This document shows, piece after piece, positions 28,562 to 60,867 of a stretch of DNA of 61,031 nucleotides. The notes under the pieces are model-generated. The model was not told the origin of the DNA. It made no database searches and was given only the letters and a program-made list of their open reading frames with translations. The DNA comes from Prevotella sp. (lineage in GTDB: Bacteria > Bacteroidota > Bacteroidia > Bacteroidales > Bacteroidaceae): NCBI GenBank assembly GCA_017442825.1, contig JAFRYZ010000020.1, positions 1 through 61,031 on the forward strand. Reading direction: 5' to 3'. The position numbers were made by a program, and so were the translations under genes. How positions within the stretch are numbered: position 1 is the first letter of the stretch; every line of letters begins with the position of its first letter.

Positions 28562-29965
28562 ATGAACAAATTTTTACGCTATTCATTTTTAAGTTTAATG
28601 CTCATCTTCTGCGGGAGTGTCTTCGCAGACGAAGCAACCTTTAACTTCACCACCCCTGACGGACTGAAAGCAATGGGTGTTGCAGAAGCCAATATCCCTA
28701 CAGTAGAAGCTTCCGCAAGTGCTGGTGTAGCCTTTGAGACTAACGGGCCGTTCACCGTAAACGGTGTGACCATCACTTCTACAGACGGCGGCACTAATTC
28801 TTCGCGCATCTGGTCACCCAAAGGCAACACTGGAACCAGCTACGACTTCCGTGTCTATGGTTCAAAAACCAACGCAGGAACCATTACCTTTACCGCTCCC
28901 ACAGGCAAGGAAATTTCTAAGATTGAACTGACAACTGGTACATGGAATGAACCTACACCTAATGTGGGCAGTATCGCATCCAAGACTTGGAGTGGCGTTG
29001 CCAATTCCGTTACCTTTACTCAGGAAGGTCAATGTCAGTACAAGACCGTTACCGTCACTTTTGCTGATGCCGGTTCTGTTACTTCCAAGAAGGATGCCGG
29101 TTTGTCTTTCTCAGAAGAGACTGTCAACGTTGTTGTCGGCGAACCGTTCACTGCTCCTACCTTGTCCAAGGCTACAACTGCTGATGTCACCTACTCTTCA
29201 ACCAATACGAAAGTTGCTGTCGTGGACGAAGCATTGGGTACTGTTGAAATCGTAGGTGCCGGCACAGCTAAGATTCGTGCTACAACAGAAGAAAATGACG
29301 AGTACTATGCCGGACAGGCAGAATACCAGATTATTGCCACAGAACCTGTTCAGACTGATGTTACCCTTCCCTACGAAGACCTGACCGGCGGTCAAGGCTC
29401 ATTTACCATCGATAATGTAACATTGTCAGAAGGACTCACCTATGTTTGGAAATGGGATAGCAGCAATAAATACATGAAAGCATCAGCTTATGTTAGTGGC
29501 AACAAAGCCAGTGAAAGCCACCTGGTTTCTCCGACCATCGACCTCGGCACAGCTACCGCCCCGACACTGTACTTCTCACAGTGCATCAACAAGTACTTCG
29601 GCACCTATGCCGACGAAGCAAAGCTTCGCATTGTGGTTGACGGTTCAAATGTTGACATCCCTCTGACAGCCCCGACCATCGAATCAGGCAACTGGTCTAA
29701 GTGGGCTGACGAAGAAATAGACCTCACCGCCTATGCAGGTAAGAAAATTCAGGTGAAATTCGTCTATATTTCTACTACTGACGCTGCCGGTACATGGGAA
29801 ATCAAGAACTTCAAGGTGGAAGACAAGGCGGCTTCAGGTCTGAACACTATCGAGGCATCTCCGCTGAATGTCAATGCTCCGATGTATAACCTTGCTGGTC
29901 AGCGCGTCAGCAAGTCTTACAAAGGCATCGTCATCCAGAACGGCAAGAAGATGATCAAGAAATAA
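28562..29965 (+). CDS. secreted beta-sandwich protein with Ig-like and anchor-J-like domains, tail motif
   Basis: A 467-aa exported protein with signal peptide SFLSLMLIFCGSVFA. Residues about 25-175 form a beta domain with a repeated TFTAPTGKEISKIELTTG pattern. About 180-270 is Ig/Big2-like (AGLSFSEETVNVVVGEPFTAP, then GAGTAKIRATTEENDEYY). About 280-430 resembles choice-of-anchor-J/DUF5017-type modules (SHLVSPTIDLGTATAPTLYF, YAGKKIQVKFVYISTTDA). It ends MYNLAGQRVSKSYKGIVIQN. No catalytic motif is visible. By position in a pectin locus it may bind glycan, but that is inference. Confidence 0.65.
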   Translation: MNKFLRYSFLSLMLIFCGSVFADEATFNFTTPDGLKAMGVAEANIPTVEASASAGVAFETNGPFTVNGVTITSTDGGTNSSRIWSPKGNTGTSYDFRVYGSKTNAGTITFTAPTGKEISKIELTTGTWNEPTPNVGSIASKTWSGVANSVTFTQEGQCQYKTVTVTFADAGSVTSKKDAGLSFSEETVNVVVGEPFTAPTLSKATTADVTYSSTNTKVAVVDEALGTVEIVGAGTAKIRATTEENDEYYAGQAEYQIIATEPVQTDVTLPYEDLTGGQGSFTIDNVTLSEGLTYVWKWDSSNKYMKASAYVSGNKASESHLVSPTIDLGTATAPTLYFSQCINKYFGTYADEAKLRIVVDGSNVDIPLTAPTIESGNWSKWADEEIDLTAYAGKKIQVKFVYISTTDAAGTWEIKNFKVEDKAASGLNTIEASPLNVNAPMYNLAGQRVSKSYKGIVIQNGKKMIKK

Positions 29966-43741: not shown

Positions 43742-45421
43742 ATGAAGAAAATCCTATTATTCACGGCTTGCTTTGTCGGCTGTATTGTCGCTCATGCACA
43801 GACGCAGGTACCGGCTTTCCCTGGTGCTGAAGGTTTCGGACGCTTTGCCACAGGTGGACGTACAGGAACAGTCTATCACGTGACCACCCTTGAAGACAAT
43901 AGTCAACAAGGCTCCTTCCGCTATGCGTGCGAACGGAGTGGTTTCCGGACCGTCGTCTTCGACGTTTCCGGCACTATCCATCTGAAGAGGGAACTTGCCA
44001 TCAAAGGCGACATCACCATTGCCGGACAGACTGCTCCCGGCGACGGCATCTGCGTAGCCGACTATCCCGTTACGCTGAATGGCAACAACGTCATCATCCG
44101 TTATATGCGTTTCCGCCTGGGCAACAAATATGTTGCCAACCATGAAGGCGACGGCTTCGGTTCGATGGACCACAACAACATCATCATCGACCATTGTTCT
44201 GTCAGCTGGAGCATTGACGAATGTCTGTCGGTCTATGGCGGACAAAACCTTACCGTGCAATGGTGCATCGCCTCACAGAGTCTGAAGAATGCGGGACACA
44301 GCAAGGGAGCCCACGGCTACGGTGGCAACTGGGGCGGTTACAAAGCCTCGTACCACCACAACCTCGTTGCCCACAACGAAAGCCGAACCCCACGCTTGGG
44401 TCCGCGTCCTGGTACACAGCAACATGAACACATGGACATGCGCAACAATGTCATCTACAACTGGGCTGGCGAAGGGTGCTACGGTGGAGAAGGCATGAAC
44501 GTGAACATGGTGAACAACTACTACAAGCCAGGTCCGGCAACAATGGCGAAAGTCAGCAGTCTCCAGAGCGACCTCATCGGTAAGCGTATTGCCAAAATCG
44601 GCATACGAACCACAGCCTATACCAAACACGGCACATCGAGCCCTAACGAATGGGATGTCATGTGGCACAAATGGGGAACTTTCTATGTCGATGGCAACTA
44701 CAACAGCCAGTATAACGACGTGACAGCCGACAACTGGACATACGGCATCTACAACCAAATCAGCAACGATGCCAGCGTCGATTATACCTTTACTGACCAA
44801 GTGAAACAAGACATGAGACTCAGTCAGCCCCTGAATTACGAAACAGTGACAACGCATAGTGCACAGACTGCCTACGAGCGCGTACTTGCCTACGCTGGTG
44901 CCAGCCTTCACCGCGATGCCTTAGACAACATCATGGTAACCGACACCCGCAATGGTACGGCAACCATGACGGGAAACGGCAACCTCAGTGGTATCATCAA
45001 TACACAAGATGATGCTGTTTCCTATATCACTGGCACCGACAGTCCATGGCCTACTCTCGTCGGTCAGCCCATGCTGACCGACACTGACGGCGACGGCATG
45101 CCTGACACATGGGAAGACAGTCATGGATTGAACAAGAACAATGCTGCCGACGGCAAGACCATCACCTCCAGCGGCTACACCCATCTGGAGATCTATCTGA
45201 ACGCACTGGTGGAAGATATCACTACGGCACAAAATGCTGACGGTATCGTGATGAGCGGACAAGACATCTTCGTGACGAGTGGCATTGAAAGCCTCACCCT
45301 CACCCCCACCCCCTCTCCAAAGGGAGATGGGAATAGTTTCTATTCACTCACAGGTCAGAAAGTGGATAGAAATTATAAAGGTTTGATGATCCAGAATGGT
45401 AGAAAAGTTGTCATCAAGTAG
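43742..45421 (+). CDS. secreted PL1-like pectate lyase (tandem copy 2), tail motif
   Basis: A 559-aa paralogue of the preceding gene, sharing PAFPGAEGFGRFATGGRTG, TIAGQTAPGDGICVADYPV, IIIDHCSVSWSIDECLSVYG and DTDGDGMPDTWEDSHGLN. It adds about 50 residues at the C-terminus: SGIESLTLTPTPSPKGDGN (a repeat-derived insertion, DNA 45290-45335) and then SFYSLTGQKVDRNYKGLMIQ, the tail motif. The difference between the two paralogues is therefore mostly the acquired tail. It is likely secreted to the same compartment as the other tail-bearing proteins. Confidence 0.88.
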   Translation: MKKILLFTACFVGCIVAHAQTQVPAFPGAEGFGRFATGGRTGTVYHVTTLEDNSQQGSFRYACERSGFRTVVFDVSGTIHLKRELAIKGDITIAGQTAPGDGICVADYPVTLNGNNVIIRYMRFRLGNKYVANHEGDGFGSMDHNNIIIDHCSVSWSIDECLSVYGGQNLTVQWCIASQSLKNAGHSKGAHGYGGNWGGYKASYHHNLVAHNESRTPRLGPRPGTQQHEHMDMRNNVIYNWAGEGCYGGEGMNVNMVNNYYKPGPATMAKVSSLQSDLIGKRIAKIGIRTTAYTKHGTSSPNEWDVMWHKWGTFYVDGNYNSQYNDVTADNWTYGIYNQISNDASVDYTFTDQVKQDMRLSQPLNYETVTTHSAQTAYERVLAYAGASLHRDALDNIMVTDTRNGTATMTGNGNLSGIINTQDDAVSYITGTDSPWPTLVGQPMLTDTDGDGMPDTWEDSHGLNKNNAADGKTITSSGYTHLEIYLNALVEDITTAQNADGIVMSGQDIFVTSGIESLTLTPTPSPKGDGNSFYSLTGQKVDRNYKGLMIQNGRKVVIK

Positions 45422-48684: not shown

Positions 48685-48850
48685 GCTTAGCAATGCTCTC
48701 ACTGCTGTTATATTGCTACGCCATATCGAGGCGCGACTCGGCATTGCTTAAGCAAGCTTAGCAATGCTCTCGCTGCTGTTATATTGCTACGCCATATCGA
48801 GGCGCGACTCGGCATTGCTTAAGCAAGCTTAGCAATGCTCTCGCTGCTGT
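48685..48850. repeat. 71-bp tandem duplication including the 3' end of the HTCS gene
   Basis: Copies start at 48685, 48756 and 48827 (partial). Each starts GCTTAGCAATGCTCTC; copy 1 has one substitution. The partial third copy is the last seven codons and stop of the HTCS gene (QQREHC-stop), so the full copies look like duplications of that gene end plus its 3' flank. The unit also contains a GCATTGCT/AGCAATGC stem around TTAAGCAAGCTT. Confidence 0.9.
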
Positions 48851-51800
48851 CGATATTCAGACGGGGTCATGCCCGTTTCCTTCTTGAAGCACTTGCTGAA
48901 GTATTTCGGGTCGGAGAAGCCAACAGAATAGGCTATCTCAGAGAAGGAACTCTTACTCTTTACAACCAACTGTTCGGCACGCTGGATGCGCAGATGGCGC
49001 ACAAAGTCAACTGGAGTCATGCCGACAACGCTCTTCACCTTACCGTAGAAGACTGAACGTCCAAGGTTGACGGCATCAGCCAAATCCTCTATGCGCAAGT
49101 CAGCATCTCCGATATGCTCTTCCAGATAAGCCATCAACCGCTCCATCATCTCTTTGTCGGCATCGACAATCTGCGGCGCATCCAACCGATAGTGTTGAGC
49201 GTCGGGAGTTGAAGGAGACCCACCCCTGTTCTGGGAGTTAGAGGTAAGGTCGATGGTGGAGGTCTCAGCATCGTGCCATTCCAGTCGTTCCAGATAGGTC
49301 TGTTGCAGCAGTCTTCGTCCGGCGATGATGTTCTCTACACGCTGTTTCAGGTAGGTTGCACTGAAGGGCTTCGTGATATAATCGTCGATACCTTCGCGTA
49401 AACCTTGCAAACGGTCTTCCATCGATGCCTTTGCCGACAGTACGATAATCGGAATATGGCAGATGTCCTTGTTCTGTTTGATACAGTGTACCATCGTCAG
49501 ACCGTCCATCACGGGCATCATCACATCGGTAATGATGAAGTCGGGCATCTCCTGTTCTGCCTTCTCCAAGCCTTCCTGTCCGTTGGCAGCCTGCAGCACC
49601 CTATAGTTTTCACGCAAAATAGAGACAAGGAACGCCCGCAGGTCGTCGTTGTCTTCGACAATGAGGAGAGTCTGGTCATTTGGTGAATTTGTTGTCTCGT
49701 CGTTTGGTAAATTCGTTGTTTGGTCGTTTGGGGGTATTGGGGTATTGACGGAATCCTTTGCCTCATCGCTCACCAGCTCCCCCGCTACTGATGTATCACT
49801 GATATACACCTCTTTCTCACGGCTGTATGTCAGCATGCGATTGACCAATGCCAGCATGCGCTGGGAGTTGCGCTCCACCATTTCCAGAAGTTTACGGCTC
49901 CCCTCCCCCAGTTTTTCTTTGTCCAACACTTCCGCCACCGGCCCGCCTATGAGCGTCAGCGGTGTGCGCAGTTTATGGCTGACATCGGTAAAGAAACGGG
50001 TCTTCATGTCACTCAGTTCACGTTCCATCTTGTTGCGCGTATGTAACTGCCAGATGTAGATGCAAACATAGACAATGCCTGCGAAAATCAGCAGATAGAG
50101 CAGCTTCGCCCACCAGGTTTCCCAGAATGTCGGCGCAGAGTCAATCTCCAGCACGGCTATATTGTCTATCCACACGCCGTCGCTGTTGGTACTCTTCACC
50201 AATAACCGCAAATGTCCGTTCGGCAAGTGGTTGAAGGATGCACTGTGTGCACTACCCACAAAGTTCCAATCCTCGTCTTCTCCCTCTATCTTATAGGCAT
50301 ACTGAACCTTTTCGTTGTCCGTATAGTCGAGTGCCGAGAAGAAAATCGTCAGGTTACGCTGATCGGAAGCCACCTGCAGTCTGTCTGCATTCAGAATAGG
50401 CACCACCTTCTCCTCGCCCTGGAACTGTACGCCCGTGAAGACTATCTGCGGATGGAAATCACTCTTCTTCATGGCTGCAGGCTGCAACGTCATGGCACCG
50501 CCCATGGCTGCCAATACCAGATTACCCGTCTGTTCGTTCCTCACCGGCTGAGCCTCGGAAAACTTCAAACGGTCACCCAACTCATGCGGTCCGAACGATT
50601 CCACCTTCCCCGTCTGACGGTTATAGCGGTCAATGCTGTTTTCGCGGATTACCCACACCAAACCATTACCGTCTTCCAGCAACGACTGCGGCAATCCCTC
50701 TATATCATTCAGTTGTGCTATCGCCCTCATGTGCAGGTTGTCTTGCAGCAACGGACTGGTAATCATCTGCACACCTCCGCCTTGCGTAACCACCATCATG
50801 GAGTCGTCTTTCAGGCGCAACACCTGCAACACATCGTTCGTTATCAGCGATTCCTGGTTTCCTTGCACATGTCGCGTCCGATAACACTGCACCGGCTTAC
50901 CCTCCTTGCAGTCGTCGCGCATCGTTAGCAGTCCATCGTTTGTTGACAGCAACATCACGCCATGACGGTCGTGAGTGATGCGGCGCACTTTCAGGCATTC
51001 TTCTTTCGGGTAACCTTTCATGCCGTTCATCGGATGCAGGAACTTCACCTTCCCGTCTTCCGCCGGCAGGAGGATATTCGGTCCGCCACCGTATGTGGCA
51101 ATCCACAACCTTCCGTGGCTGTCTTCATCGAACCCATATATATCATCGCTGCTGAGTGCCCACAATTCATCCATATGTGTATAATGGGTCACCCTGCCTT
51201 CGGCAGTCCTGCAAAACAGTCCCTCGCCTCTTGTACCTATCCACAGGTTTCCATTCCGGTCTTCATGGATGCAGTAGATGCGGTTGGAGAACTTCACAGG
51301 CGATGACTGTATGGCACCATTGGGAGCAAGATAGCCGGAAATTTGCTGCGCCTTGTCCACGACAGCCACTTCGCCGGTGTACATACCAATCCATGTATTC
51401 CCCTTGCTGTCGATGCAAACGGAGCGGGCTTCCTGATTCGGAACAACCAGCGTAAAGGCATAGCGCCGGTACATGAAGTTAAGCAACGTCAGTGCACGCG
51501 TACCTGTAAACCACAGGTTTCCTTGCTGGTCAGACATGTATTTCGTGATGATAGGCAGGTCGGTATTGCTCCTTCCCGTTTCCAGAGCATAGGCATCCAC
51601 CGCCCCAGGCGTTTGCAGAATATAGGGAACGAGCCGTTTCGCCGTCTCGTCATAGTAACAGAAAGTTCCACCGGTGGGAATCAGCCACACTGTACCGTAG
51701 CTATCCTGATGGAAGACAGGCACCTCACTCTTCGTCTCCAACAGCGGACTGACCGATACCGATGGTAAAGGCAGCTGCGACCAGTCGCGCGTATCGACAA

Positions 51801-52752
51801 CAGTCACGCCGTCCTGCTTCGTAAACACCCACAGGCGTTGGCTCCGGTCAGGGAAAACCGACAATGCCTCTGCCCCGCCTACAGAAAGCAGGCGCAGCGA
51901 ACCGGGCTGTCGTACATCAAACAGCAGCAGGCCACCATCGGTAGCTGCCACAGCACTGTTGCCGTCGAGCTTCACCAAGTCATTAATCCGGGTGACCTCC
52001 GCAGGTGTGCTTACCGTCTTTTCCTTGCTCCAACCCTCACACCATAGTCCCATCTGCCCCGTCGGAGCTGCCAGCAATATGGTTTTCCCCAACTGCAGCA
52101 TATAGTCGTAAACCACCTGCGTATGGAAGTCCTTGCCCAGAAGCGTTGCACCTTGTTCCGTGAATATCCACTCGCGCCCATCATCATCGAGCAGTACCTT
52201 GTGGATATGCTTGCCCCTGAAGGCCTTACCGTCGGCAGCATAGACCGTGATGCCGCCACCTGTTTTCACCAGACTGTCATCGATACAGAAGTTATAGATA
52301 CCCTCATCGCGGCATACCACCCACGACCGTCCGTTCGCCAGCGTGAAAATCGTACGTACGCGAACCTCCTCACCACATATCTCCTTCAGCTGCTCACCCA
52401 CATCCACATACTGGCAGGCATGGGTATCGAACAGATAAAGGTGCCGGTCATACGACGTACACCACAAGTCGTTCTGTGAATTGGGTTTCACTAACAGAAT
52501 GCGGTTGGAGGTCAGCTGGTCGGCATCACTGTTACCATCTCGAAAGGTCATGAAGTTATAGCCGTCGTAACAGCTCATACCGTTCCATGTCGCAAACCAC
52601 ATCAGGTCGTCGCTGGTCTGTCCGAATCCGGAAATGGTATTGGCTGCCAATCCGTCGCGAATGGTAAACGTATGCACACGACAGGCTGGCTGCGCCTGGG
52701 TGATGCCTGCCCAAAGCAGTAAGAGGAATAACGTGAAAAGGCTTTTCTTCAT
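48829..52752 (-). CDS. hybrid two-component system regulator (HTCS) lacking the HATPase_c domain
   Basis: A 1307-aa inner-membrane sensor-regulator. The signal peptide is LFTLFLLLLWAGITQA. A periplasmic two-bladed reg_prop/Kelch-like sensor spans about 25-770, and Y_Y_Y at about 790-865 includes YTDNEKVQYAYKIEGEDEDW. The TM segment is AKLLYLLIFAGIVYVCIYIW. The HisKA-like H-box is FFTDVSHKLRTPLTLI (His926, with Lys in place of the usual Glu after His). Then, only 102 residues after His926, comes REC (LLIVEDNDDL, phospho-Asp1076 in ITDVMMP, Lys in ITKPF). The AraC-type HTH is at about 1205-1305. No N, G1 or G2 boxes exist, so there is no ATP-binding kinase domain. A NDQTTNLPNDETTNSPNDQT linker occupies the gap. 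It is the presumed regulator of the pectin locus, responding to a pectic oligosaccharide. Confidence 0.92.
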   Translation of the reverse strand: MKKSLFTLFLLLLWAGITQAQPACRVHTFTIRDGLAANTISGFGQTSDDLMWFATWNGMSCYDGYNFMTFRDGNSDADQLTSNRILLVKPNSQNDLWCTSYDRHLYLFDTHACQYVDVGEQLKEICGEEVRVRTIFTLANGRSWVVCRDEGIYNFCIDDSLVKTGGGITVYAADGKAFRGKHIHKVLLDDDGREWIFTEQGATLLGKDFHTQVVYDYMLQLGKTILLAAPTGQMGLWCEGWSKEKTVSTPAEVTRINDLVKLDGNSAVAATDGGLLLFDVRQPGSLRLLSVGGAEALSVFPDRSQRLWVFTKQDGVTVVDTRDWSQLPLPSVSVSPLLETKSEVPVFHQDSYGTVWLIPTGGTFCYYDETAKRLVPYILQTPGAVDAYALETGRSNTDLPIITKYMSDQQGNLWFTGTRALTLLNFMYRRYAFTLVVPNQEARSVCIDSKGNTWIGMYTGEVAVVDKAQQISGYLAPNGAIQSSPVKFSNRIYCIHEDRNGNLWIGTRGEGLFCRTAEGRVTHYTHMDELWALSSDDIYGFDEDSHGRLWIATYGGGPNILLPAEDGKVKFLHPMNGMKGYPKEECLKVRRITHDRHGVMLLSTNDGLLTMRDDCKEGKPVQCYRTRHVQGNQESLITNDVLQVLRLKDDSMMVVTQGGGVQMITSPLLQDNLHMRAIAQLNDIEGLPQSLLEDGNGLVWVIRENSIDRYNRQTGKVESFGPHELGDRLKFSEAQPVRNEQTGNLVLAAMGGAMTLQPAAMKKSDFHPQIVFTGVQFQGEEKVVPILNADRLQVASDQRNLTIFFSALDYTDNEKVQYAYKIEGEDEDWNFVGSAHSASFNHLPNGHLRLLVKSTNSDGVWIDNIAVLEIDSAPTFWETWWAKLLYLLIFAGIVYVCIYIWQLHTRNKMERELSDMKTRFFTDVSHKLRTPLTLIGGPVAEVLDKEKLGEGSRKLLEMVERNSQRMLALVNRMLTYSREKEVYISDTSVAGELVSDEAKDSVNTPIPPNDQTTNLPNDETTNSPNDQTLLIVEDNDDLRAFLVSILRENYRVLQAANGQEGLEKAEQEMPDFIITDVMMPVMDGLTMVHCIKQNKDICHIPIIVLSAKASMEDRLQGLREGIDDYITKPFSATYLKQRVENIIAGRRLLQQTYLERLEWHDAETSTIDLTSNSQNRGGSPSTPDAQHYRLDAPQIVDADKEMMERLMAYLEEHIGDADLRIEDLADAVNLGRSVFYGKVKSVVGMTPVDFVRHLRIQRAEQLVVKSKSSFSEIAYSVGFSDPKYFSKCFKKETGMTPSEYRQQREHC
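49672..49750 (-). repeat. TCGTTTGG/AATTCGTTG repeat at the HisKA-REC junction of the HTCS
   Basis: Imperfect units of about 24-27 nt (TCATTTGGTGAATTTGTTG, TCGTTTGGTAAATTCGTTG, TCGTTTGG) encode PNDQTTN-type repeats, exactly where a HATPase_c domain would be expected. Confidence 0.75.
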
Positions 52753-52957: not shown

Positions 52958-53149
52958 CTAATCTTCTGTGTCTTCCCATGCTTCCCACACCGAATAGTGG
53001 CGTGCCAATGCCTGGTCAGTACCTTCTCCGTCGTCTATGACAGGAGTCAGGTCTGTGGTTCCTTCAACACCAGAAATCACTTGCATGATTCCTTCAGTGT
53101 TGACTGGTACATACTCGGTATAAGGCTTGATATATTTTTTTCTTTTCAT
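52958..53149 (-). CDS. small acidic protein S2, homologous to S1 (63 aa)
   Basis: Starts 16 nt after the stop of the 1328-aa CE8 gene. The N-terminus is MKRKKYIKPYTEYVP, the middle GVEGTTDLTP, and the C-terminus LARHYSVWEAWEDTED. It has no signal peptide and no TM segment. It aligns with the small protein at 57534-57782 through (K/R)K.YI.PYTE..P, GTTD and ARHY..W.AW.D.E. The N-terminal K.YxxP pattern resembles a broad class of short Bacteroidales proteins of unknown function. Candidate roles are a precursor peptide or partner/chaperone of the large secreted protein before it; neither is shown. Confidence 0.8.
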   Translation of the reverse strand: MKRKKYIKPYTEYVPVNTEGIMQVISGVEGTTDLTPVIDDGEGTDQALARHYSVWEAWEDTED

Positions 53150-53165
53150 TACACTTTATTTTTCA

Positions 53166-56100
53166 TTACTTCATGACGACCTTACGTCCATTAATAATCG
53201 CGATGCCTTTATAGTGCTTGCCGACTCGCTGTCCGGCGAGGTTGTACATCGAATCATCATTACTCATTGTCCATTGACCATTGTCAATTATCAATTGTCC
53301 ATTGTCCATTGACGAAATGCCCGTAGTGGTGGCATCTCCATACACGAAGCCAATTATCTTGGCACCCTGTGACAGGGTTTTGGGCAGATAAGCCTTGTTG
53401 GCACCCAGCGTTGAGGGGGTATAGGGTTTAAAGCCAACATTGCCTTTGGCATCGACCACAGCCAGTGTATAGATGCCGTCTCCACAGAGGTCGCTGACAG
53501 CTGTTGTCACCAGTGTGCCTCCCAGTTTGTTGTCGATGGCTGCAGGTGAGTCGGCAGCCTCCAGGAAGTAGGTTCCTGCTATGGCGTTGAAGATGAAGCC
53601 TTCTGCTGCCGGCACTTCCGTCAGCGCGGTAAGGGTCATGGTGGCTTTCGCGTCGGCTGTAGTCACATCGCTGACATAGTATGCCTTCGTGCCTTCAGGA
53701 ATTTTCACCGCTGCGTCGAAACAGCCTGTTGACCAGCCCACGGATGAGGTAGTAATTTTAGCCGCCGGATTATTGACGGTCACGATGACTGTTGATGTCG
53801 AACCGAGTCCTCCGTACAGATTAGCCGAACGCAAGGTATAGACTCCGGCTTCGGTTGTTTCATACGACGTAGTCGTTACGTCCGCCAGGTATTCACCATC
53901 CTTGAAGATGACGTAGCAGCGGGCATCATCGACAGCAGTCCATGTCAGTGTATAGGTTCCTGCATCATACGTAGCTGTAAAGTTTGCTGGAGCAGCAACG
54001 ACTGCTGTCTCTTCCGTAGGCAGCCATGAGTCAGTACCGCCCAGCACATTCTCTACGGTGAACTTGGCAGCCTCGGCAGCCGTGAGTACGGGAGTGTAAT
54101 GGTTGGTGGAGGTAGGAGAATTGCCACGCACGCTCAAGTCGAGGGCGTTGCCGTTCTTATCCATCGAGTTGTACTCATAGAAGTGGGTGGGCAGTGTACC
54201 CATGCTTTTCCATCCGTTGTCTGAAGGCAGCACCTCCATCTTGGTGTTCAGGAAGTAGGTACGTGGTTCGTTCTGCCAGGGACGTCCCAAATCCCAGTCT
54301 TTGTCAACGACAGCTGTTGCCCCCTCCACAGCCTTGATGGTACAGCCTTGGAAGACGTAGCCCCACTTGGTGTCGGCGGTGGTGTTGGGAGCAACAATGA
54401 CATTGTGTGCCCGGTTAAGGAGTATGAGGTCGCACTGGTTGAAGAAGATGTTTCCTCCGCCGCAGATGAAGTCCACCGTGCCGTAGATGTCGCAGTTTTC
54501 CAAGTAGGTGCGCTGTCCGGTGACGTAGGTATCCTGACATGCCTGCATGGCAACATTCTTCAGAACAGCTTTGTTGCCGCCGGTCACAGCCACGCTGACG
54601 CCCTTGTTTGCATTGGGGTAGTCGTAGTTGTTGCGGATGGTCATATCCTGTACGTAGATACCGGTACCGTTGCCGAGGTTCAGCGTTGAGGATGTAATGC
54701 CGTCGGTAGTGCCCTCGATAACGACACCTTCCTTGCTCTCACCGATGAGCGATACGTTATACACGTTGTTCCAGTTGTCAATCTTCAACGACACATTATA
54801 CTGATAAGATCCTTCCAATGTGCCGTAGGTGTAGTTGCCGTTCTTCAGGAAGACGGTCTTGCGGGTGGCACTGGCTGTTCTGTTGGAAGTCTTCAGCGCT
54901 TCCAATGCAGCATCCAGTTCCGAGGCATTGCTCACCACATAGTCGTAGGCAGCCTTGCTGACGGCAGGTTTGGCACTGGTATTGACTGCCACCTCAATGG
55001 CAGCGGCATTCTTATTGCCATAGTTGTCGGTTACAGCATTTGCGGCAATGGTCATCGTGTAGTTGGTGCTGTAGGCGAGGTTCCATATCGGGAACACGAG
55101 CACAGCCGAACCACCCTCTGCCGTCACCGTAGTATTGTTGATGGTGGCAACGACATCACCCGGAATCTCACGGTCGAAAGTCAGCGTCACCACGGCGTGG
55201 TTGTTCACCACGTTCACTACTTCGGCAGTCTTCTGGGGTGCCGTACCTGGATTTTGCTTCACTACGACGAGCTGAATCCATGCCATGGGCTGTCCGCTCT
55301 TCTGCTGGGTCAGCACGATGTCCGCACCAGGGGTATGTCCGTCAATGTTCACGATGATGTCGTGCTTGGCACCTTCAGACTCGTGGTAGTACTTGTTGTC
55401 AACGGGGATGTAGGCAGTAGCACCCGTGCTGGTCACGGCTGTCAGCCGCGCATTGTTGCCGCTGTAGTTGTTCGAACAGTCCTTCATAATCAGCTGCTTC
55501 ACCACCACATCGGCAGGCAGGCTGAGCGTATAGCTGTTGCCGTTCATCTTGAAGTACTCGTTATATCCGTCAAGACTGGTAGTAGAGAGCGTGTAGATGC
55601 CGTTGGTCCATGTGTTGTTCTCGCGTGTACCCTCATTGTTCTTGATGTTGACGCTCTGCTCACTGCCCGTAGGCGTGTACACGTGTACATTATTCAATAC
55701 GAGAGTATAGTCGCGCTCGATGTCTGTATTCTCGATGGCAGCATGGATGGTGTAGGTGTATGTGCTGCCGCTGACCGTGGGAGTGCCCACCGTGGCATTG
55801 GCACCGTCAATCTGAACTGCAGCCACCGTCGGTGCGGTGGTATAGCATCCGCCGTAGGTAGCGGTGTAGGTAGTGCTGCTGCTGTTGATGTCGCCGAGCA
55901 CGTCAACACTGGTGCCGTCGATGGTGACATCCGTCAGCGACATCTCGCCGATGCGGAAGATATTGAAGGTATAGGTGGTCTGCGTTGAATAAGCACCTGC
56001 AGAAGGAGTAAGGACCAGGGTGACTGCGGTAGTCGTCCCCCTTTCCGGCGTTGCTATAGTGAATGTACCGTCTCCATTATCGATAACAGCTACTGCCTGA

Positions 56101-57152
56101 TTATTTCCGTCAACAGCTGTTGCTGCAACTGTTCCGTATTGCGGCGAAACTGAGAATGTAGTAGTAGCATCGTAAGTAACGGGCAGCTGGCAGTACCAGT
56201 CGCTGCTTGCACCTTCACTTACCGTCTGTCCGGTAATGGCAACGTCATTGATTTTGGCAAAGGTTTCAGACAGCCAAGTAAAGGTTGGTGCTTTGTAATT
56301 GCAAATCCAACTGCTTTGGTTGCTGGTGAAGGTGTATTTAATGGTCTTATTCTCACCTTTGGTAATAAAGCCTTCGAGCGTGATGTCTGTAGAGGTATAT
56401 GCCTGGTTTCCTGATTCTATAGCATAGTTCATATTAACCTCTTCCGTGTTAGTATCATCGTCTGTAACAACAATATTCATGGTTCCGCCATTATAACGGG
56501 CAATATCCAGAGTCATCTTGTAAACACCATCCTTTGCACTGATGAAAGGATAGCTTGCCCAGACACCATCTTTGATGTAACCGACATTGGTATTGCTGTT
56601 TTCTGTTTGGCAACCATTATGGGTTCCGTTTGCCAGTGTCAGCGTACCGGGAATACAGTCTTTGTCACAATCATCAAGGGTATATATGGCTAAATCACCC
56701 CAGTTGCCGGCATAGCTTGAAGCCTCTGTCACTTGGAACTTCAATTCATAGGTACCTGCGGGCAGCTGGGAAATCAGGAAATACCGTTTTGTAGATAGCG
56801 ACCAGTTACCCGTGTTGACAACATCAACGCTCTTTGTCAACACGACATCGCTTGTCGATGTATTGGTTACCGTAACCTGCATCTTGGCTTCATACTTGCT
56901 ACCCGTTTTAAAGGTCATCACATAGTCCTGCTGTGTGCTGTTGCTGATGGTAAAGGTTGCAACGGTGCTCGCACTCGTCGAGCCGATGTTGGCTCCGCTG
57001 TTCTCCACGCTGGCATTAGACAACGCGGCATCATTCCAGTCGATGTACGTTCCGGCTGTTGTCGGAATCGTCACCGTTCCGGCAGCACACACACCGCTTC
57101 CAAACAGGAAGACGATTACTGCCGTCAGTAGTTTAATAGTTTTACTTTTCAT
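53166..57152 (-). CDS. very large secreted CE8 pectin methylesterase (1328 aa), tail motif
   Basis: An exported protein with signal peptide LLTAVIVFLFGSGVCAAG. Two CBM6-like modules occupy about 25-300 (FTISNSTQQDYVMTFKTGSK, LPAGTYELKFQVTEASSYAG), then cadherin/Ig-like repeats to about 750. The CE8 beta-helix at about 760-1060 shows KTVFLKNGNYTYGTLEGS, QACQDTYVTGQRTYLENC, GTVDFICGGGNIFFNQ and DLGRPWQNEP (catalytic Gln/Asp/Asp/Arg regions). C-terminal FN3-like and beta domains follow. The tail MYNLAGQRVGKHYKGIAIIN is preceded by MDNGQLIIDNGQWTMSN, an in-frame CAATTG-array repeat (residues about 1281-1296). It is followed 16 nt later by small protein S2. Confidence 0.88.
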   Translation of the reverse strand: MKSKTIKLLTAVIVFLFGSGVCAAGTVTIPTTAGTYIDWNDAALSNASVENSGANIGSTSASTVATFTISNSTQQDYVMTFKTGSKYEAKMQVTVTNTSTSDVVLTKSVDVVNTGNWSLSTKRYFLISQLPAGTYELKFQVTEASSYAGNWGDLAIYTLDDCDKDCIPGTLTLANGTHNGCQTENSNTNVGYIKDGVWASYPFISAKDGVYKMTLDIARYNGGTMNIVVTDDDTNTEEVNMNYAIESGNQAYTSTDITLEGFITKGENKTIKYTFTSNQSSWICNYKAPTFTWLSETFAKINDVAITGQTVSEGASSDWYCQLPVTYDATTTFSVSPQYGTVAATAVDGNNQAVAVIDNGDGTFTIATPERGTTTAVTLVLTPSAGAYSTQTTYTFNIFRIGEMSLTDVTIDGTSVDVLGDINSSSTTYTATYGGCYTTAPTVAAVQIDGANATVGTPTVSGSTYTYTIHAAIENTDIERDYTLVLNNVHVYTPTGSEQSVNIKNNEGTRENNTWTNGIYTLSTTSLDGYNEYFKMNGNSYTLSLPADVVVKQLIMKDCSNNYSGNNARLTAVTSTGATAYIPVDNKYYHESEGAKHDIIVNIDGHTPGADIVLTQQKSGQPMAWIQLVVVKQNPGTAPQKTAEVVNVVNNHAVVTLTFDREIPGDVVATINNTTVTAEGGSAVLVFPIWNLAYSTNYTMTIAANAVTDNYGNKNAAAIEVAVNTSAKPAVSKAAYDYVVSNASELDAALEALKTSNRTASATRKTVFLKNGNYTYGTLEGSYQYNVSLKIDNWNNVYNVSLIGESKEGVVIEGTTDGITSSTLNLGNGTGIYVQDMTIRNNYDYPNANKGVSVAVTGGNKAVLKNVAMQACQDTYVTGQRTYLENCDIYGTVDFICGGGNIFFNQCDLILLNRAHNVIVAPNTTADTKWGYVFQGCTIKAVEGATAVVDKDWDLGRPWQNEPRTYFLNTKMEVLPSDNGWKSMGTLPTHFYEYNSMDKNGNALDLSVRGNSPTSTNHYTPVLTAAEAAKFTVENVLGGTDSWLPTEETAVVAAPANFTATYDAGTYTLTWTAVDDARCYVIFKDGEYLADVTTTSYETTEAGVYTLRSANLYGGLGSTSTVIVTVNNPAAKITTSSVGWSTGCFDAAVKIPEGTKAYYVSDVTTADAKATMTLTALTEVPAAEGFIFNAIAGTYFLEAADSPAAIDNKLGGTLVTTAVSDLCGDGIYTLAVVDAKGNVGFKPYTPSTLGANKAYLPKTLSQGAKIIGFVYGDATTTGISSMDNGQLIIDNGQWTMSNDDSMYNLAGQRVGKHYKGIAIINGRKVVMK
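53265..53313 (-). repeat. CAATTG-array repeat inside the CE8 coding sequence
   Basis: TTGTCAATTATCAATTGTCC units, the same family as the promoter cassettes and the array after 33317, are read in frame as DNGQLIIDNGQW. Confidence 0.8.
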
Positions 57153-57193
57153 TTTGTTGATGTGTTAATTGGTTTTTATTCTTTTTCCGACGG

Positions 57194-57225
57194 CAAAAGT
57201 ATGGAGATTCCAGCAGGCAAAGGTA
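57194..57225 (-). promoter_or_regulatory. two tandem -7 boxes of the 1328-aa CE8 gene
   Basis: TACTTTTG (57194-57201) and TACCTTTG (57218-57225) on the minus strand, 24 bp apart. Either could be used, giving leaders of about 35 or 60 nt. Confidence 0.6.
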
Positions 57226-57533
57226 GAGATTATAGTAGAAGAGGTGGAAAGCACCGAAGCCAAGGGGGGGAATTTCTCACGGAAAAGGTGGAAATCTTTA
57301 TAGAATAAAGCAGTTCAAGTTTCGCTTGTCGCTCAACTTACGGATGGAAAAGAACACAGCTATAGCATAAATCAACATGCCGCACCCTCACGGGCACGGC
57401 ATATCTAATCAATAACTCAAACCAAATTCTAATGTCTTTTCACACAAATCATAAGAAAAGACATCATTCATTACTACTCTTACTTTTCAATTTAATAATA
57501 CCTAACTTATTTAATACCTATTAAAGACTTGTC
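57226..57533. other. non-coding spacer between S1 and the CE8 gene
   Basis: Holds a TGTCTTTTC/GAAAAGACA inverted repeat (57433-57441 with 57455-57463) and an imperfect ATGCCG...CGGCAT hairpin near 57376-57401, either of which could end S1 transcription or bind a regulator. I see no ORF or RNA gene. Confidence 0.5.
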
Positions 57534-57782
57534 TTATTCTTCTTCATCATCGCCCCATGCTGTCCAGGCATTGTAATGTCGGGCACCTACTTCGTCGTAC
57601 TCGCCGGAGTTGTCGATGTTGCTGCTGATGCCTCCTTCTACTACGTTTCCTTGCCAGTCTGTAGTGCCCGTATAACTGGCGGAATGCAGGACGGCAGCGA
57701 TACGCAACGGCGTCTGTTCTGTATATGGGGTGATATATGGTTTCCTGAAAACGGGCTGTTGTGTGATGCTATTTCTTTCCAT
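57534..57782 (-). CDS. small acidic protein S1, homologous to S2 (82 aa)
   Basis: Starts 10 nt after the stop of the 1024-aa secreted protein. The start at 57782 (MERNSITQQPVFRKPYITPY) is chosen because the longer in-frame version overlaps the end of the upstream gene. It shares RKPYITPYTEQTP, YTGTTDW and GARHYNAWTAWGDDEEE with S2. It has about 15 extra residues in the middle (GNVVEGGISSNIDNSG). No signal peptide, TM segment, Cys or Gly-Gly leader. Function unknown; the repeated pairing with a large secreted protein is the main clue. Confidence 0.8.
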   Translation of the reverse strand: MERNSITQQPVFRKPYITPYTEQTPLRIAAVLHSASYTGTTDWQGNVVEGGISSNIDNSGEYDEVGARHYNAWTAWGDDEEE

Positions 57783-57792
57783 GATGATTTCC

Positions 57793-60700
57793 TTACTTAA
57801 CAATAAACTTTTTACCGTTCTTGATATAAATTCCACGCACAGGTTGTGCTATCCGGCGTCCCTGCAGGTCGTAGACAGTCTCCTCACCTGTTGAAGAGGG
57901 GTTGAGCGTAAGACCTTCAATGGCAGCAATGTCTGTCGACACTTCTTCCACGCCGTCTGTATCGAGAGAGAGGATATATTCTTTCGCTTCTGTGTGGTTG
58001 CTGGATTCGAAGAAGAATCTGAATCCTTTGATGTCGAGTGTCTTGCCGGCACGGTGGATACCACCGTCGGCTCCAATAAAGTAGTCGTTCAGCCGGATGC
58101 CGCCCGCCTGCTTGGTATAGGCTGCATTTAATGTAAACTGGGTACCGTCGGTGACAGTTCCTGTTGATCCGCCGTTCTTGCCCAGTTCGATGCTTGAGCC
58201 GCTGAAGGTGACACGGTTCGGTGTTCCGTCGTCAGGAATGATGAAGTTCAGGTTGCCTGTGGTGTTCGAGGGTTTGACGAAACAGGGACGTCCGGCAACA
58301 ATCATCTGATAGTAGTGTTGCTTGAAATGCAGTGTCTTGTTGTTGATTTTGTCGAAGTAGATGACCTTAGTATCGTCGCCGAAGGCTGCCTTGACCTGTG
58401 TCTCGGTCATGCTGAACGGCACAACAACTGCATTCCACACACCACCTGTCAGCGTTCGGTTGCTGGTGGTGATAACGACATTATCAGTACCGTCAGGCAC
58501 ATTCACGGCTGTATTGTCTGTCAGCCAATAAGAAACATCGGTCTTGGTGTCGTCGAGCACAGCCTCCTTGACCGTCACCGCAGTATTGGAATTGAACTGA
58601 TAGCCGAAGAGTGCCATCTTGGAACCGACGACGAACATGAAGTAGGTTTTACCGGCTTCTACGTTAAAGACATACTGGCAAGCTGCCTCCTGAATGATGG
58701 AATAGCCGTTGTTGTCGCGCTCGATAATCTTCTCGAATCCGTCCGTACCGTTCTCCCAATACTCGTCTGCGACGGCATCTCCATTCGTATAAGACGACTT
58801 TTCAACCGTCAATGCCGTATGTGAAGACTTGGAAGCGGCAGCAACGGTGTTGCCCATCTCGTCGGCAAAGTAGAGGATGCGGTTCGTATAAAGGCGGTTA
58901 TCGTCTGCAGAAGCGAAGCCGTTTTGCAATACCGTAACGGTCAGTGTGCCGGCATTGGCAGGTTCAAACTTGTAGTAGGAACCTGTAATGGGCAGGTTGA
59001 AGGTATTTGAATTCGGGGTATAGTTATTGCCTTCAGGGTGACTCTCAGAACCCTCGTCCTTGGGATTTGCGCTGCCAGATGTAGCCATCTGGAAACCTGG
59101 CCAGTTGGCTACCTGGTCTGTGCCCGGCTCCGACCAGTTGTCGTCATTACCATAGGTCATCACGATACCCTCAACGTCGCTGATAGCAAGACCGCTCGAA
59201 GGACGGTCACTGACCATATAGGTGTCTTCGCCATAGGCATAATAGCCGATGATGTTAACCGGATTGGTACCGGAATAGATATAGTAGGTCTTCCCTGTTT
59301 CCATATTGAAGGAGATGGTCTGTTGTCCATGACGGTTTGAACTGGTCTTGGTTGTAATACCCTCTGCAAACTTGTCGATAGGTGTACCCGTTTCGTCAGT
59401 TACCCAGACGGTGCCTGCCTCTGTTCTTTCTTGTATATCGAGGAACACCATGATGTTCTTGTCTTGCTTAGCCGTGAACTTATAGTAGGTGCCAATGGTG
59501 GGCAGTGAGCCGGAATCGGCATAGTCGCCTGTCGTGCTGTTCAACGGCAGAGACAATCCCTCAGCCCGATAGGCGGCACCATTGTAAGTCTTGCTCATTT
59601 CTGCTGCAGAATAGGTATCGTAACCCATCTGGAAGGTCAGGATGCCGGTGTCGTTGATGGTGTATTCCGAAGCGGTTGCATCAGTCGGGATGGCAAACGT
59701 TTCTGTATCGCGGGTAAACGTATAGGAAATCAGTCCGATTTGAGCACCCGACAGGAAGAAGTAATAATCCTTGCCGGCTTCCATGTGGAACGTCATCGTC
59801 TCTACATGGTCTGCAGATTCTGTCGACGGAAGATTATAGTAGTGATAATCCACACCATTAATTGTTCTTTTACTTGCAGAAAGAGTCGTCAACGTAGAGA
59901 AGGTCGTCATCACATCTGCTATCGTGCCGCCATCGTCCGACAACACCCACAACCATCTATTGCTACCGGTATTGTAGTACGTCTGAACGGCAATGGTGCC
60001 AGAGGTGGTTGCACGGAACTTATAGTAGGTGCCTTGTGTGGGAAGGTTGGCATCGTCTCCAAAATTTTTATTACTATCGTCAAGCGGCCGTCCGTCGTGG
60101 ATTGCATAATTACACACCGTTACACCGCCATCTTCCAGATTTGCCACGCTCCATCCTGTTCCTGTGCCGTCGCCTAACGTCAACGTCGTCGAAGTGGTTG
60201 CCAGACTGCCACTTGTCAGATCTGTTGCATCGGAAATAGTCAGTGTTTCGGATTGGGGCGTGAATGCATAAGAAACCAGTCCGATTTCTGTTCCCGACAG
60301 GAAGAAGTAGTAATCCTTGCCGGGTTCCATGCTGAACGTCATCGTCTCAGCATGGTCGGCAGACGACGTCGATGGGAGTTTATACAAGGTGTGGCCCTGT
60401 TTGGTACTTGTTGAAGGAGTCAACGTAGAGAAGGTTGTCGGTACATCAGATATGGTTCCGTTGTCTTCTGACAATACCCACAGCCAGTTTTCGTTAGCGG
60501 TTTTATAGACAGTTTGCACGGCAATGGTGCCGGCTACGGTTGTGCGGAACTTATAGAAGGTTCCTTGCGCAGGCAGATTGCCGGAGTTTTCAAACCTGCC
60601 ACCAGAACCGGAATTGATACCGTCGAGAGGTTCGGCAGTACATATATAATAAGGTGTAGGCGTGGAGCCGTCTTTAAAGCTTGCTACTTTCCAGCCCGTG

Positions 60701-60867
60701 CCGTTGCCTAACGTCATGGTTACATGGGATGTGTTGGTTGAATACGTCGCTACGCGAGAGAAATCCGATGGTACAGTGTAGCGTTCTGTTGTCTCTTGTG
60801 CGCTTACCCCTCCGGGTATGATGCACATAAAAAGGATGTAAATCCTGAAAAATAACTTCTTGTTCAT
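57793..60867 (-). CDS. giant secreted four-repeat protein (1024 aa), tail motif
   Basis: Exported; the signal peptide ends GGVSAQ. It contains four related beta modules of about 140-190 residues, each with a GTYYKF entry and a KDYYFFLSG exit: QGTFYKF with GKDYYFFLSGTEIGLVSY, QGTYYKF with GKDYYFFLSGAQIGLISY, IGTYYKF with GKTYYIYSGTNPVNIIGY, and TGSYYKF with GKTYFMFVVGSKMALFGY. They resemble adhesin or carbohydrate-binding sandwiches. A C-terminal domain (about 800-1000; WNAVVVPFSMTETQVKAAFG, GRPCFVKPSNTTGNLNF) is common in Prevotella secreted proteins. The tail is VYDLQGRRIAQPVRGIYIKN. No catalytic motif found; it may bind pectin. It is followed 10 nt later by small protein S1. Confidence 0.7.
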   Translation of the reverse strand: MNKKLFFRIYILFMCIIPGGVSAQETTERYTVPSDFSRVATYSTNTSHVTMTLGNGTGWKVASFKDGSTPTPYYICTAEPLDGINSGSGGRFENSGNLPAQGTFYKFRTTVAGTIAVQTVYKTANENWLWVLSEDNGTISDVPTTFSTLTPSTSTKQGHTLYKLPSTSSADHAETMTFSMEPGKDYYFFLSGTEIGLVSYAFTPQSETLTISDATDLTSGSLATTSTTLTLGDGTGTGWSVANLEDGGVTVCNYAIHDGRPLDDSNKNFGDDANLPTQGTYYKFRATTSGTIAVQTYYNTGSNRWLWVLSDDGGTIADVMTTFSTLTTLSASKRTINGVDYHYYNLPSTESADHVETMTFHMEAGKDYYFFLSGAQIGLISYTFTRDTETFAIPTDATASEYTINDTGILTFQMGYDTYSAAEMSKTYNGAAYRAEGLSLPLNSTTGDYADSGSLPTIGTYYKFTAKQDKNIMVFLDIQERTEAGTVWVTDETGTPIDKFAEGITTKTSSNRHGQQTISFNMETGKTYYIYSGTNPVNIIGYYAYGEDTYMVSDRPSSGLAISDVEGIVMTYGNDDNWSEPGTDQVANWPGFQMATSGSANPKDEGSESHPEGNNYTPNSNTFNLPITGSYYKFEPANAGTLTVTVLQNGFASADDNRLYTNRILYFADEMGNTVAAASKSSHTALTVEKSSYTNGDAVADEYWENGTDGFEKIIERDNNGYSIIQEAACQYVFNVEAGKTYFMFVVGSKMALFGYQFNSNTAVTVKEAVLDDTKTDVSYWLTDNTAVNVPDGTDNVVITTSNRTLTGGVWNAVVVPFSMTETQVKAAFGDDTKVIYFDKINNKTLHFKQHYYQMIVAGRPCFVKPSNTTGNLNFIIPDDGTPNRVTFSGSSIELGKNGGSTGTVTDGTQFTLNAAYTKQAGGIRLNDYFIGADGGIHRAGKTLDIKGFRFFFESSNHTEAKEYILSLDTDGVEEVSTDIAAIEGLTLNPSSTGEETVYDLQGRRIAQPVRGIYIKNGKKFIVK

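Follow-up and report, generated by a model that had tools for sequence, protein, structure and literature searches.

Why should two large secreted proteins of a Prevotella sp. each be followed by the gene for a tiny acidic protein? The question is raised by two gene pairs in one stretch of 61,031 nt (hereafter the window, meaning the whole stretch that was analyzed). An earlier note on this DNA suggested either that the small proteins act with the export, maturation or regulation of the large ones or that they are precursor peptides.

The two gene pairs and the family of their small proteins

Both pairs lie on the minus strand and are arranged as previously described. In the first, the gene for a 1024-aa secreted protein with repeats (positions 57793..60867), in which no Pfam family scores above cut-off, is followed after 10 nt by the gene for an 82-aa YxxP protein (57534..57782). 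In the second, the gene for a 1328-aa pectinesterase (53166..57152; PF01095, E 1e-28, a family that we take to be CE8) is followed after 16 nt by the gene for a 63-aa YxxP protein (52958..53149). The tails of the two cargos, read directly at their C termini, are of the same type (...YNLAGQRV..KGIAIINGRKVVMK and ...YDLQGRRI..RGIYIKNGKKFIVK), as the earlier note had stated. Pattern matching places the terminal motif NGRKVVMK-stop of the 1328-aa cargo at 53166..53192 and NGKKFIVK-stop of the 1024-aa cargo at 57793..57819, both on the minus strand. Two plus-strand ORFs of 467 and 559 aa, which carry the tail motif (29939..29965 and 45395..45421, pattern matches) and have no small partner, serve as comparison cases. 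The curated Pfam and NCBIfam models of the T9SS C-terminal domain, presumably PF18962 and TIGR04183, match neither window cargo at E<=1. The cargos end in KVVMK (1328 aa) and KFIVK (1024 aa), and a KxxxK ending is a signature of type IX cargo, as in Porphyromonas and Paraprevotella (PMC9477747). The window tails resemble such cargo in this ending and differ from it in being short and in matching no curated model.

The 82-aa and 63-aa proteins, both putative precursors, are homologous (pairwise E 1.7e-6, 42% identity), and by eye neither has a hydrophobic, signal-like stretch, in agreement with the claim that they lack signal peptides. Pfam and NCBIfam scans of the two proteins gave no match at E<=1. 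Searching 59 other genomes of the genus with a single sequence yielded no homologue (E<=0.01), and profiles were needed to find relatives beyond the own genome. The family profile matches both window proteins, which were among its seeds (E 4.6e-24 for the 63-aa protein), and has 17 to 19 matches in the own genome; matches occur in 38 of 40 same-genus genomes and in 113 of 151 same-family genomes (own genome included), with up to 29 per genome. This confirms that the two small ORFs of the window are members of one divergent family that is far larger than first reported. One own-genome match (L050, E 0.104) was discarded on finding that an unrelated ORF of 217 aa begins there.

Members share YxxP near the N terminus, Leu-Leu-x-x-Ser about 20 residues later and, at the C terminus, Trp together with acidic residues. 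The GTTD block, which had been listed as a shared feature, is present in both window proteins and was not seen in the remaining own-genome members, so it does not hold for the family. The leader Tyr is conserved in 93 and the Pro in all 94 of 94 aligned members, a conservation that is partly built in because the first seeds were chosen by eye for YxxP. Ser or Thr stands at +19 or +20 from the leader Tyr in 74 of the 94. Mean column identity is 15%, with a variable C-terminal part, and Tyr, Pro and Trp are kept among proteins that are 13 to 39% identical to the first alignment row.

Pairing with genes for T9SS-type cargo

The tail pattern finds 29 genes in the own genome, compared with 0 in the reversed control, and 10 of the 29 are followed by a family member within 10 to 162 nt. 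Among six further own-genome profile matches that were not seeds (E<0.01), a tail gene lies directly upstream of five; the exception, L048, has no tail gene before it and itself precedes a giant secreted ORF whose length is at least 1822 aa. The earlier note had proposed a profile search across relatives with the upstream gene recorded each time, and such a search bears out the pairing. In the same genus, 106 small ORFs were found, 100 of them with an upstream ORF in range, and this ORF is tail-positive in 89/100. The corresponding values are 24/28 in further genomes of the family and 11/16 in the same order. Other ORFs are tail-positive in 0/95 cases for the same-genus and same-order loci and in 0/48 for the further family genomes, which is 0/143 for background ORFs overall. 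We conclude that the small genes are paired with tail-bearing genes throughout the own genome and across genera. YxxP-like ORFs of two genomes, G114 and G144 (L084, L085, L089, L094, L096 and L099), had no upstream tail gene that we could see, two of them lacking a usable upstream ORF, and may represent another family; they and most other tail-negative members were left out of family set A3, and L091 gave no ORF.

SprA (TIGR04189), from the SprA/Sov translocon gene that also goes with known type IX cargo (PMC9477747), exceeds its cut-off in 38 of the 40 genomes of the genus (own included) and in 0 of 14 controls, and some relatives have a more classical T9SS ending (L086, L107, L185 and L197, by eye). 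Cargos that have a small partner are the longer ones (median at least 1521 versus 651 aa, p 6e-4). Nor is the pairing specific to pectin: only one of 16 partnered own-genome cargos is a pectinesterase. A C10 peptidase, a GH88 and a BNR/sialidase-like protein, each found once, are the other recognized enzyme types among the 16; in the remaining cargos there are only Fn3_assoc, Big_2, InlB-repeat or comparable domains, or there is no family at all. A link of such putative precursors to type IX cargo was not found in the literature searched.

A kinase, peptidase and RRE cassette in the same lineages

The same lineages carry a cassette that encodes an HprK-like kinase, an archaeal-type signal peptidase and a discrete RRE of the PqqD family. 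Of the PqqD regions that were fetched, 36 of 40 contain all three genes, as do 75 of 80 named loci, whereas two of the fetched regions, both from genus g2 (L269 and L270), contain none of them. Cultured laboratory strains that have the cassette include Hallella multisaccharivorax DSM 17128, Segatella albensis DSM 11370 and Prevotella lacticifex JCM 34664. Peptidase residues Ser40, His78 and Asp93 are invariant in 18/18 sequences, and the kinase P-loop Gly-Lys-Ser-Thr is invariant in 22/22. Curated families match weakly, below cut-off (HprK_rel_A, E 7e-4; sigpep_I_arch, E 9e-7), and neither the kinase profile nor the peptidase profile matched a solved structure. The RRE profile does match the leader-bound lasso RREs PbaB1 (9x90), TfuB1 (6jx3) and TbiB1 (5v1u). 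With positions anchored on PbaB1 G42/Q79, Asn occupies the position of LppB N33 in 110/110 RREs of relatives, and Asp occupies that of D70 in 108/110; in LppB, these two residues hold the YxxP leader (PMC13381572).

LppB belongs to the maturation system of linear polyphosphorylated peptides (LPP) of the Paenibacillus alginolyticus type, described in Nat Commun in 2026 and called restricted to Bacillota (PMC13381572). The likeness extends to the HprK-like kinase, to a Ser-His-Asp archaeal-type SpI (LppS uses S29/H68/D93) and to precursors of 35 to 200 aa with a YxxP leader and a variable C-terminal part. The exporter of LPP clusters is MsbA-like; in our material, an ABC exporter adjoins the cassette in some lineages, namely in 6 of the 40 fetched regions (L226, L227, L228, L232, L252 and L256) and in 1 of 80 named loci (L350), and in L241 it is fused to the peptidase. 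The Ser that is phosphorylated in LppA lies 18 residues after the Tyr, and the Ser (or Thr) of the present family mostly lies at 19 or 20. In contrast to LPP clusters, which have one to three precursors each, the putative Bacteroidales precursors are mostly dispersed behind T9SS-tail cargo genes; their leader lacks VLxHQxIxFET, and their C terminus has the Trp-acidic block. An NTP-transferase was not noticed beside the three-gene Prevotella-type cassettes, whose neighbors were clustered by BLAST, mostly without a family scan. Two features of the presumed modification site speak against a precursor role: the residues at the presumed cut do not make up a signal-peptidase site of the classical kind, and in some members the position is taken by Thr, which LppK did not phosphorylate (PMC13381572). 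Lasso peptides of the paeninodin type share the combination of RRE, [Y/W]xxP leader and HprK-like kinase. However, no cyclase or B2 peptidase was noticed on reading the Bacteroidales loci, the family has Tyr and not Trp, and its RREs have Asn where paeninodin RREs have Gly. For the terms searched, the accessible parts of two mining studies, one of RiPPs in Bacteroidales (PMC10352776) and one of RREs (PMC12710340), yielded neither HprK nor a Bacteroidales YxxP system.

A local precursor was looked for beside the Prevotella-type cassettes and not found: the density of YxxP ORFs is equal near and far, and family members lie near the cassette in 2 of 80 named loci, which is no more than chance. 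An apparent small gene 3 kb from PqqD in G365 sits at a contig end and gave no match when the region was fetched. Only in L253 and L254 does a putative precursor share a locus with the RRE and the kinase. In both, these genes stand together with NTP_transf_5 (PF14907) and genes of capsule type, and the small gene is the sole family member of its genome; the setting is like that of LPP. These loci were fetched because searches had already shown the small gene and PqqD close together, and at the mean density of small genes a few such neighbors are to be expected in a sample of this size; what gives the observation weight is therefore that two genera have the genes in the same order, and not how near the genes are to each other. 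That no precursor is tied to the cassette outside these two loci counts against the precursor view.

Across the same 151 genomes of the family, kinase and small genes occur together in 107, the kinase only in 14, small genes only in 6 and neither in 24 (Fisher, 6e-13). The co-occurrence also holds within genera (CMH, p 0.0019), and it is weaker with PqqD in place of the kinase (108, 28, 5 and 10; p 4e-4). In both kinase analyses, a cut-off of 1e-80 was picked after the values had been seen, and more trust should be placed in the table made without it. The own genome, with about 19 small genes, has no kinase and no PqqD match, and since its assembly is 79% complete, loss and absence are indistinguishable there. 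Small proteins with no kinase match were likewise found in G298, G321 (94% complete), G333 (93% complete), G354 and G393, and in the genus sample PqqD was missing from G001 (79% complete, 22 small matches) and G023 (56%, 8 small matches). Small genes in genomes with no kinase match, the weaker association with PqqD, the weak matches of kinase and peptidase to curated families and the rarity of the exporter beside the cassette are further points against precursors.

What the small proteins may be

Type III secretion chaperones are small acidic proteins encoded beside their effectors, and the small proteins could in the same manner be cytoplasmic escorts, each binding the large T9SS-type partner either ahead of Sec export or in the course of it. 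The directly downstream gene, the small size, the acidity, the lack of a visible signal peptide and the greater length of partnered cargos would all suit an escort. However, such a role predicts neither YxxP with a matching RRE, nor co-occurrence with a kinase, nor members in a capsule-type locus (L253 and L254), and the sequences are very variable. We regard an escort role as improbable. The small proteins differ from type III secretion chaperones in having Sec-type cargo and a leader-like YxxP end, and we know of no sequence shared between the two. The precursor evidence would hold unchanged if the cassette matured independent signaling or antimicrobial peptides whose position merely gave them condition-dependent transcription, with no working link to the cargo, and the polysaccharide-type locus around the L253 and L254 members favors such peptides. 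This, too, seems improbable, since the tail-gene pairing is far above background across genera and a chance host operon would not need to favor very long cargos. It is very unlikely that the small proteins lack a present function and were carried along as pairs duplicated many times: both members of some pairs do resemble paralogs (small proteins L009, L010 and L030 and their tails), but the partnered cargos include unrelated types, and Tyr, Pro and Trp persist among very divergent proteins.

Among the options of the earlier note, precursor peptides fit best, based on the YxxP leader, the matching cassette with its leader-holding residues, the co-occurrence and the locus shared by two genomes; the one thing that speaks for action with export or maturation of tail-bearing proteins is co-location. 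In our view, the small proteins are probably made by ribosomes as precursor peptides, which an LPP-like system then matures in trans. What supports this, demonstrated at the level of sequence, is the pairing, the motifs, the cassette, the RRE residues, the co-occurrence and the shared locus. The precursor gene would be expressed together with the cargo gene just upstream. By analogy with LPP, the discrete RRE would then bind the N-terminal K-x-YxxP leader, the HprK-like kinase would phosphorylate the conserved Ser about 19 to 20 residues after the Tyr, and the signal-peptidase-like enzyme, guided by the RRE, would cut next to that Ser. We guess that the acidic core of about 35 to 55 residues leaves the cell, in some lineages via the ABC exporter beside the cassette. 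Most of all a guess is that the peptide, once at the surface, serves the cargo that is expressed with it; tethering or masking at surface polysaccharide is one way in which it might do so. A fuller scheme for Prevotella-type Bacteroidales, which we hold to be doubtful, is genome-wide: many giant type IX cargos would each have their own precursor, one central RRE-kinase-peptidase cassette would serve them all, and the phosphorylated acidic peptides would help in anchoring, masking or maturing their partner cargo at surface polysaccharide.

The family looks like the raw material for a kit of binding protein, kinase and peptidase that has been described in another phylum, and this hypothesis is quickly testable because the leader-contact residues of the RRE have already been mapped in LppB. 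If it is true, LPP-like peptides are not confined to Bacillota, are spread across Prevotella-type bacteria and have far more precursors per genome than the published figure of one to three in each cluster. A family of small proteins for which neither Pfam nor NCBIfam has a model would gain a function, and there would be an explanation for a kinase-peptidase-RRE cassette that mostly stands without an adjacent precursor. The hypothesis would also mean that cluster-based genome mining can miss RiPP-like systems with dispersed precursors. That the putative peptides travel with large surface proteins may be a clue to the purpose of such peptides.

Small genes behind genes for tail-bearing cargos

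Both gene pairs in the window lie on the minus strand, and open reading frame (ORF) reading gives them exactly as the earlier note described them: a 1024-aa cargo followed after 10 nt by an 82-aa protein (pair 1), and a 1328-aa cargo, in which a family scan finds a pectinesterase domain, followed after 16 nt by a 63-aa protein (pair 2). Neither small protein has a match at E ≤ 1 in Pfam or NCBIfam. Their proposed homology was borne out by sequence comparison, in which they match each other at E 1.7e-6. Beyond pair 2, on the same strand, a hybrid two-component regulator (window 48829-52752; sensor, response regulator, and AraC-type end, by eye) probably controls the neighboring carbohydrate locus.

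The DNA pattern NG(K/R)Kxxx(K)-stop, searched over the 2.31-Mb assembly of this genome, found 29 tail sites, compared with 0 in a reversed control. Visual inspection places every one of them in the reading frame of a Y.L.G.(R/K)...KGI.I.NGKK-type tail; the final codon of one (L016) is not a stop, and another (L006) is on a short ORF. At 10 of the 29 sites, a small ORF with K.YI.P or a similar motif close to its start lies on the same strand, 10 to 162 nt downstream. Behind one tail gene (L029; G000:C61:39994-40353), two different family members stand in tandem. A profile of 11 small ORFs chosen by eye behind tail sites (A1) matches 17 sites in the genome at E < 0.01. Five of the six matches from outside the seed have a tail gene immediately upstream that the strict pattern had overlooked, and the sixth (L048) lies upstream of a giant secreted ORF. 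L051, which the profile matches weakly, is also behind a tail gene. A profile of 18 members from this genome (A2) matches 34/40 same-genus and 5/198 same-order genomes (own included in both).

The earlier note had called for a profile search recording the upstream gene. From other genomes of the genus, we took all listed A2 matches that reached E ≤ 1.3e-4 and were free of internal stops, plus one weaker match with a locus, and weaker ones may exist beyond those listed; from the order, we took all 19 matches outside our genome, one of which gave no ORF. Among these matches are 124 small ORFs, 116 with a usable upstream ORF (same strand, ≥80 aa, with its end between -80 and +400 nt relative to the small-ORF start). 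At E ≤ 0.1, a tail HMM built on the 29 tails regardless of partner recognized 100/116 of these upstream ORFs versus 0/95 other ORFs of the same loci. The genus contributes 89/100 positives, with a median gap of 23 nt, and the order 11/16 (89/106 and 11/18 if a missing upstream ORF is counted as a miss). The 94-row profile A3 matches 38/40 same-genus genomes and 113/151 same-family genomes in 25/30 genera (own included). In further same-family genomes, 29 small ORFs, 27 of them from other genera, gave 24/28 tail-positive upstream ORFs versus 0/48, in a set where A3, built mostly from tail-neighboring members, may favor such subfamilies. By eye, some of the negatives across these sets (L107, L185, and L197) have a more classical T9SS-like ending. 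At the level of sequence and gene order, we consider the pairing of small gene and tail gene established.

Type IX-like tails and the cargos

The ending of the tails in this genome agrees with KXXXK, the C-terminal signature given for type IX cargo in PMC9477747, and the translocon gene SprA is present in 38/40 same-genus genomes (own included) versus 0/14 controls. No curated T9SS tail model in Pfam or NCBIfam matches either window cargo, so their export by T9SS is putative.

The 16 partnered cargos of this genome are at least 1521 aa long at the median (six are truncated at the fetched edge), compared with 651 aa for 17 unpartnered tail genes (P = 6e-4; P = 4e-5 with only the 10 pattern-found cargos), a comparison that leaves out the unpartnered sites L006 and L031, for which no length was obtained. 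Partnered cargos include a C10 peptidase with a Spi inhibitor domain (L367:306-3506; family scan), GH88 and BNR proteins, and giants with Fn3_assoc or Big_2, and six have no family at E ≤ 0.001. Unpartnered tail genes (10/17 scanned) include two pectate lyases, one GH88, and two LRR proteins. Based on these mixed domain types and the length contrast, we conclude that the small partner is independent of pectin and of enzyme family and favors long cargos.

A kinase-peptidase-RRE cassette and its distribution

In the A3 alignment, the Tyr and Pro of YxxP are conserved in 93/94 and 94/94 rows. Lys is usual 2 and 3 positions before the Tyr; position 6 from it is often Ile, Thr, Val, or Met. Leu/Ile/Met at positions 16 to 17 precede A-G-S, and 74/94 rows have a Ser/Thr at +19 or +20. 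A near-C-terminal Trp is present in ≥90% of rows. Genome G114 encodes a repeated set of small proteins whose N terminus is longer and which carry KKxYxKPxFEV...LLxxS (L085, L089, L094, L096, and L099). No tail gene was seen upstream of them, and they may represent a second YxxP family that belongs to another Bacteroidales family.

In lasso peptides, discrete RREs bind the leader at a YxxP motif, and we therefore turned the search to PqqD (PF05402), which is found in 35/40 genus and 136/151 family genomes. It usually lies with a kinase (~295 aa), a peptidase (~160 aa), and the 89-aa RRE, mostly in that order, and all three genes are present in 36/40 fetched PqqD regions. The RRE is on the opposite strand in L239, the order differs in L258 and L259, the kinase is missing from L241, no peptidase lies within the fetched part of L254, and none of the three is present in L269 and L270. 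An ABC exporter follows the cassette in 6/40 regions. The family scan identified PqqD at E 3e-18, with weak matches below cut-off to lasso PqqD models, archaeal signal peptidase I, and HprK-related kinase. The peptidase Ser, His, and Asp are invariant (18/18), as is the kinase P-loop (22/22). In a collection of named genomes, the best 80 of 587 confirmed kinase relatives come from Prevotella, Hoylesella, Segatella, Hallella, Palleniella, Paraprevotella, Paludibacteraceae, and other Bacteroidales; 75 of these 80 loci have all three genes, and one (L350) has an adjacent exporter.

In many Prevotella-type cassettes (L222 and similar), the kinase is separated from an rpoD-like sigma factor gene by a gene for a secreted-looking protein of ~150 to 190 aa, which lies three genes ahead of the RRE. 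At L241:7862-11942, in a same-genus genome, PqqD adjoins a fused SpI-like peptidase/ABC exporter, and a different YxxP small ORF (KKKYEKPTMKLVEWNF...) lies beside a 410-aa lipoprotein-like gene; this is perhaps another RiPP-like cluster. Two nearby PqqD genes, a kinase, a peptidase, a 445-aa ORF, and a Cys-rich 46-aa ORF (KKKFEKPQMKVVKLKP...) at L271:6841-10287 are possibly a separate peptide cluster.

Among the 151 family genomes, 107 have both kinase and small proteins, 14 kinase only, 6 small proteins only, and 24 neither (Fisher P = 6e-13). With a post hoc kinase cut-off of 1e-80, these classes are 101, 2, 12, and 36, and with PqqD in place of the kinase they are 108, 28, 5, and 10 (P = 4e-4); shared ancestry inflates these values. 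The association holds when stratified by genus (Cochran-Mantel-Haenszel [CMH] P = 0.0019 uncut and 0.0014 cut; permutation P = 8.5e-4, cut). In the genus sample, the two near-complete genomes lacking PqqD yield 0 (G020) and 1 (G031) small matches, and G004, with PqqD in another setting (L241), yields 0; but G001 (79% complete) and G023 (56%), also without PqqD, yield 22 and 8. Small proteins without a kinase match occur in our genome and in five more; our assembly is 79% complete, and its cassette may be either absent or unassembled.

Comparison with linear polyphosphorylated peptides

Linear polyphosphorylated peptide (LPP) clusters, often in capsule loci and described as restricted to Bacillota, comprise a discrete RRE (LppB), an HprK-like LppK, an SpI-like LppS, an NTP-transferase (LppN), an exporter (LppD), and 1 to 3 precursors of 35 to 200 aa with YxxPxVLxHQxIxFETxxS; cleavage depends on the RRE, and core Ser3 is phosphorylated (PMC13381572, Nat Commun 2026). 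N33 and D70 are the LppB residues that secure the Pro kink and the Tyr (PMC13381572). Mapped through an RRE alignment to PbaB1 (9x90; counterparts G42 and Q79), these positions are Asn in 110/110 and Asp in 108/110 Bacteroidales RREs (RREs scoring E < 1e-10 whose locus also has a kinase at E < 1e-30; the same genome may be counted twice). This conservation was the sharpest of the tests. Since the same residues are common to many lasso and PQQ RREs (PMC13381572), it supports binding of YxxP and not LPP specifically.

On one strand, L253 carries genes for a glycosyltransferase, a sugar transferase, an RRE, NTP_transf_5, and an HprK-like kinase (family scans). The same strand also has genes of the polysaccharide export and chain-length types, one for a family member, and one for an SpI of Peptidase_S24 type. 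Together these make up the LPP gene set, here in a capsule-type setting. Judged by eye, the gene order of L254, which comes from a different genus, is identical as far as the family member (in L254, the NTP transferase alone was scanned). These two family members score E 4e-8 and 8e-9 with A3, and each is the sole A3 match of its genome. Both loci were fetched since the two genes were already known to be near, and nearness is not rare at this sample size; their weight is the order repeated in two genera, not proximity. Elsewhere in the loci examined, no precursor is tied to the cassette, so that cassette and small genes fit one another yet mostly lie apart.

Among the matches listed for open-licence full texts, we found no paper linking RiPP-like precursors to type IX cargo and none describing LPP in Bacteroidota. 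The small proteins might serve their cargo. Precursor peptides were one option offered by the earlier note, and the YxxP-fitting RRE and the kinase co-occurrence make it likely that the small proteins are precursors of an LPP-like system.
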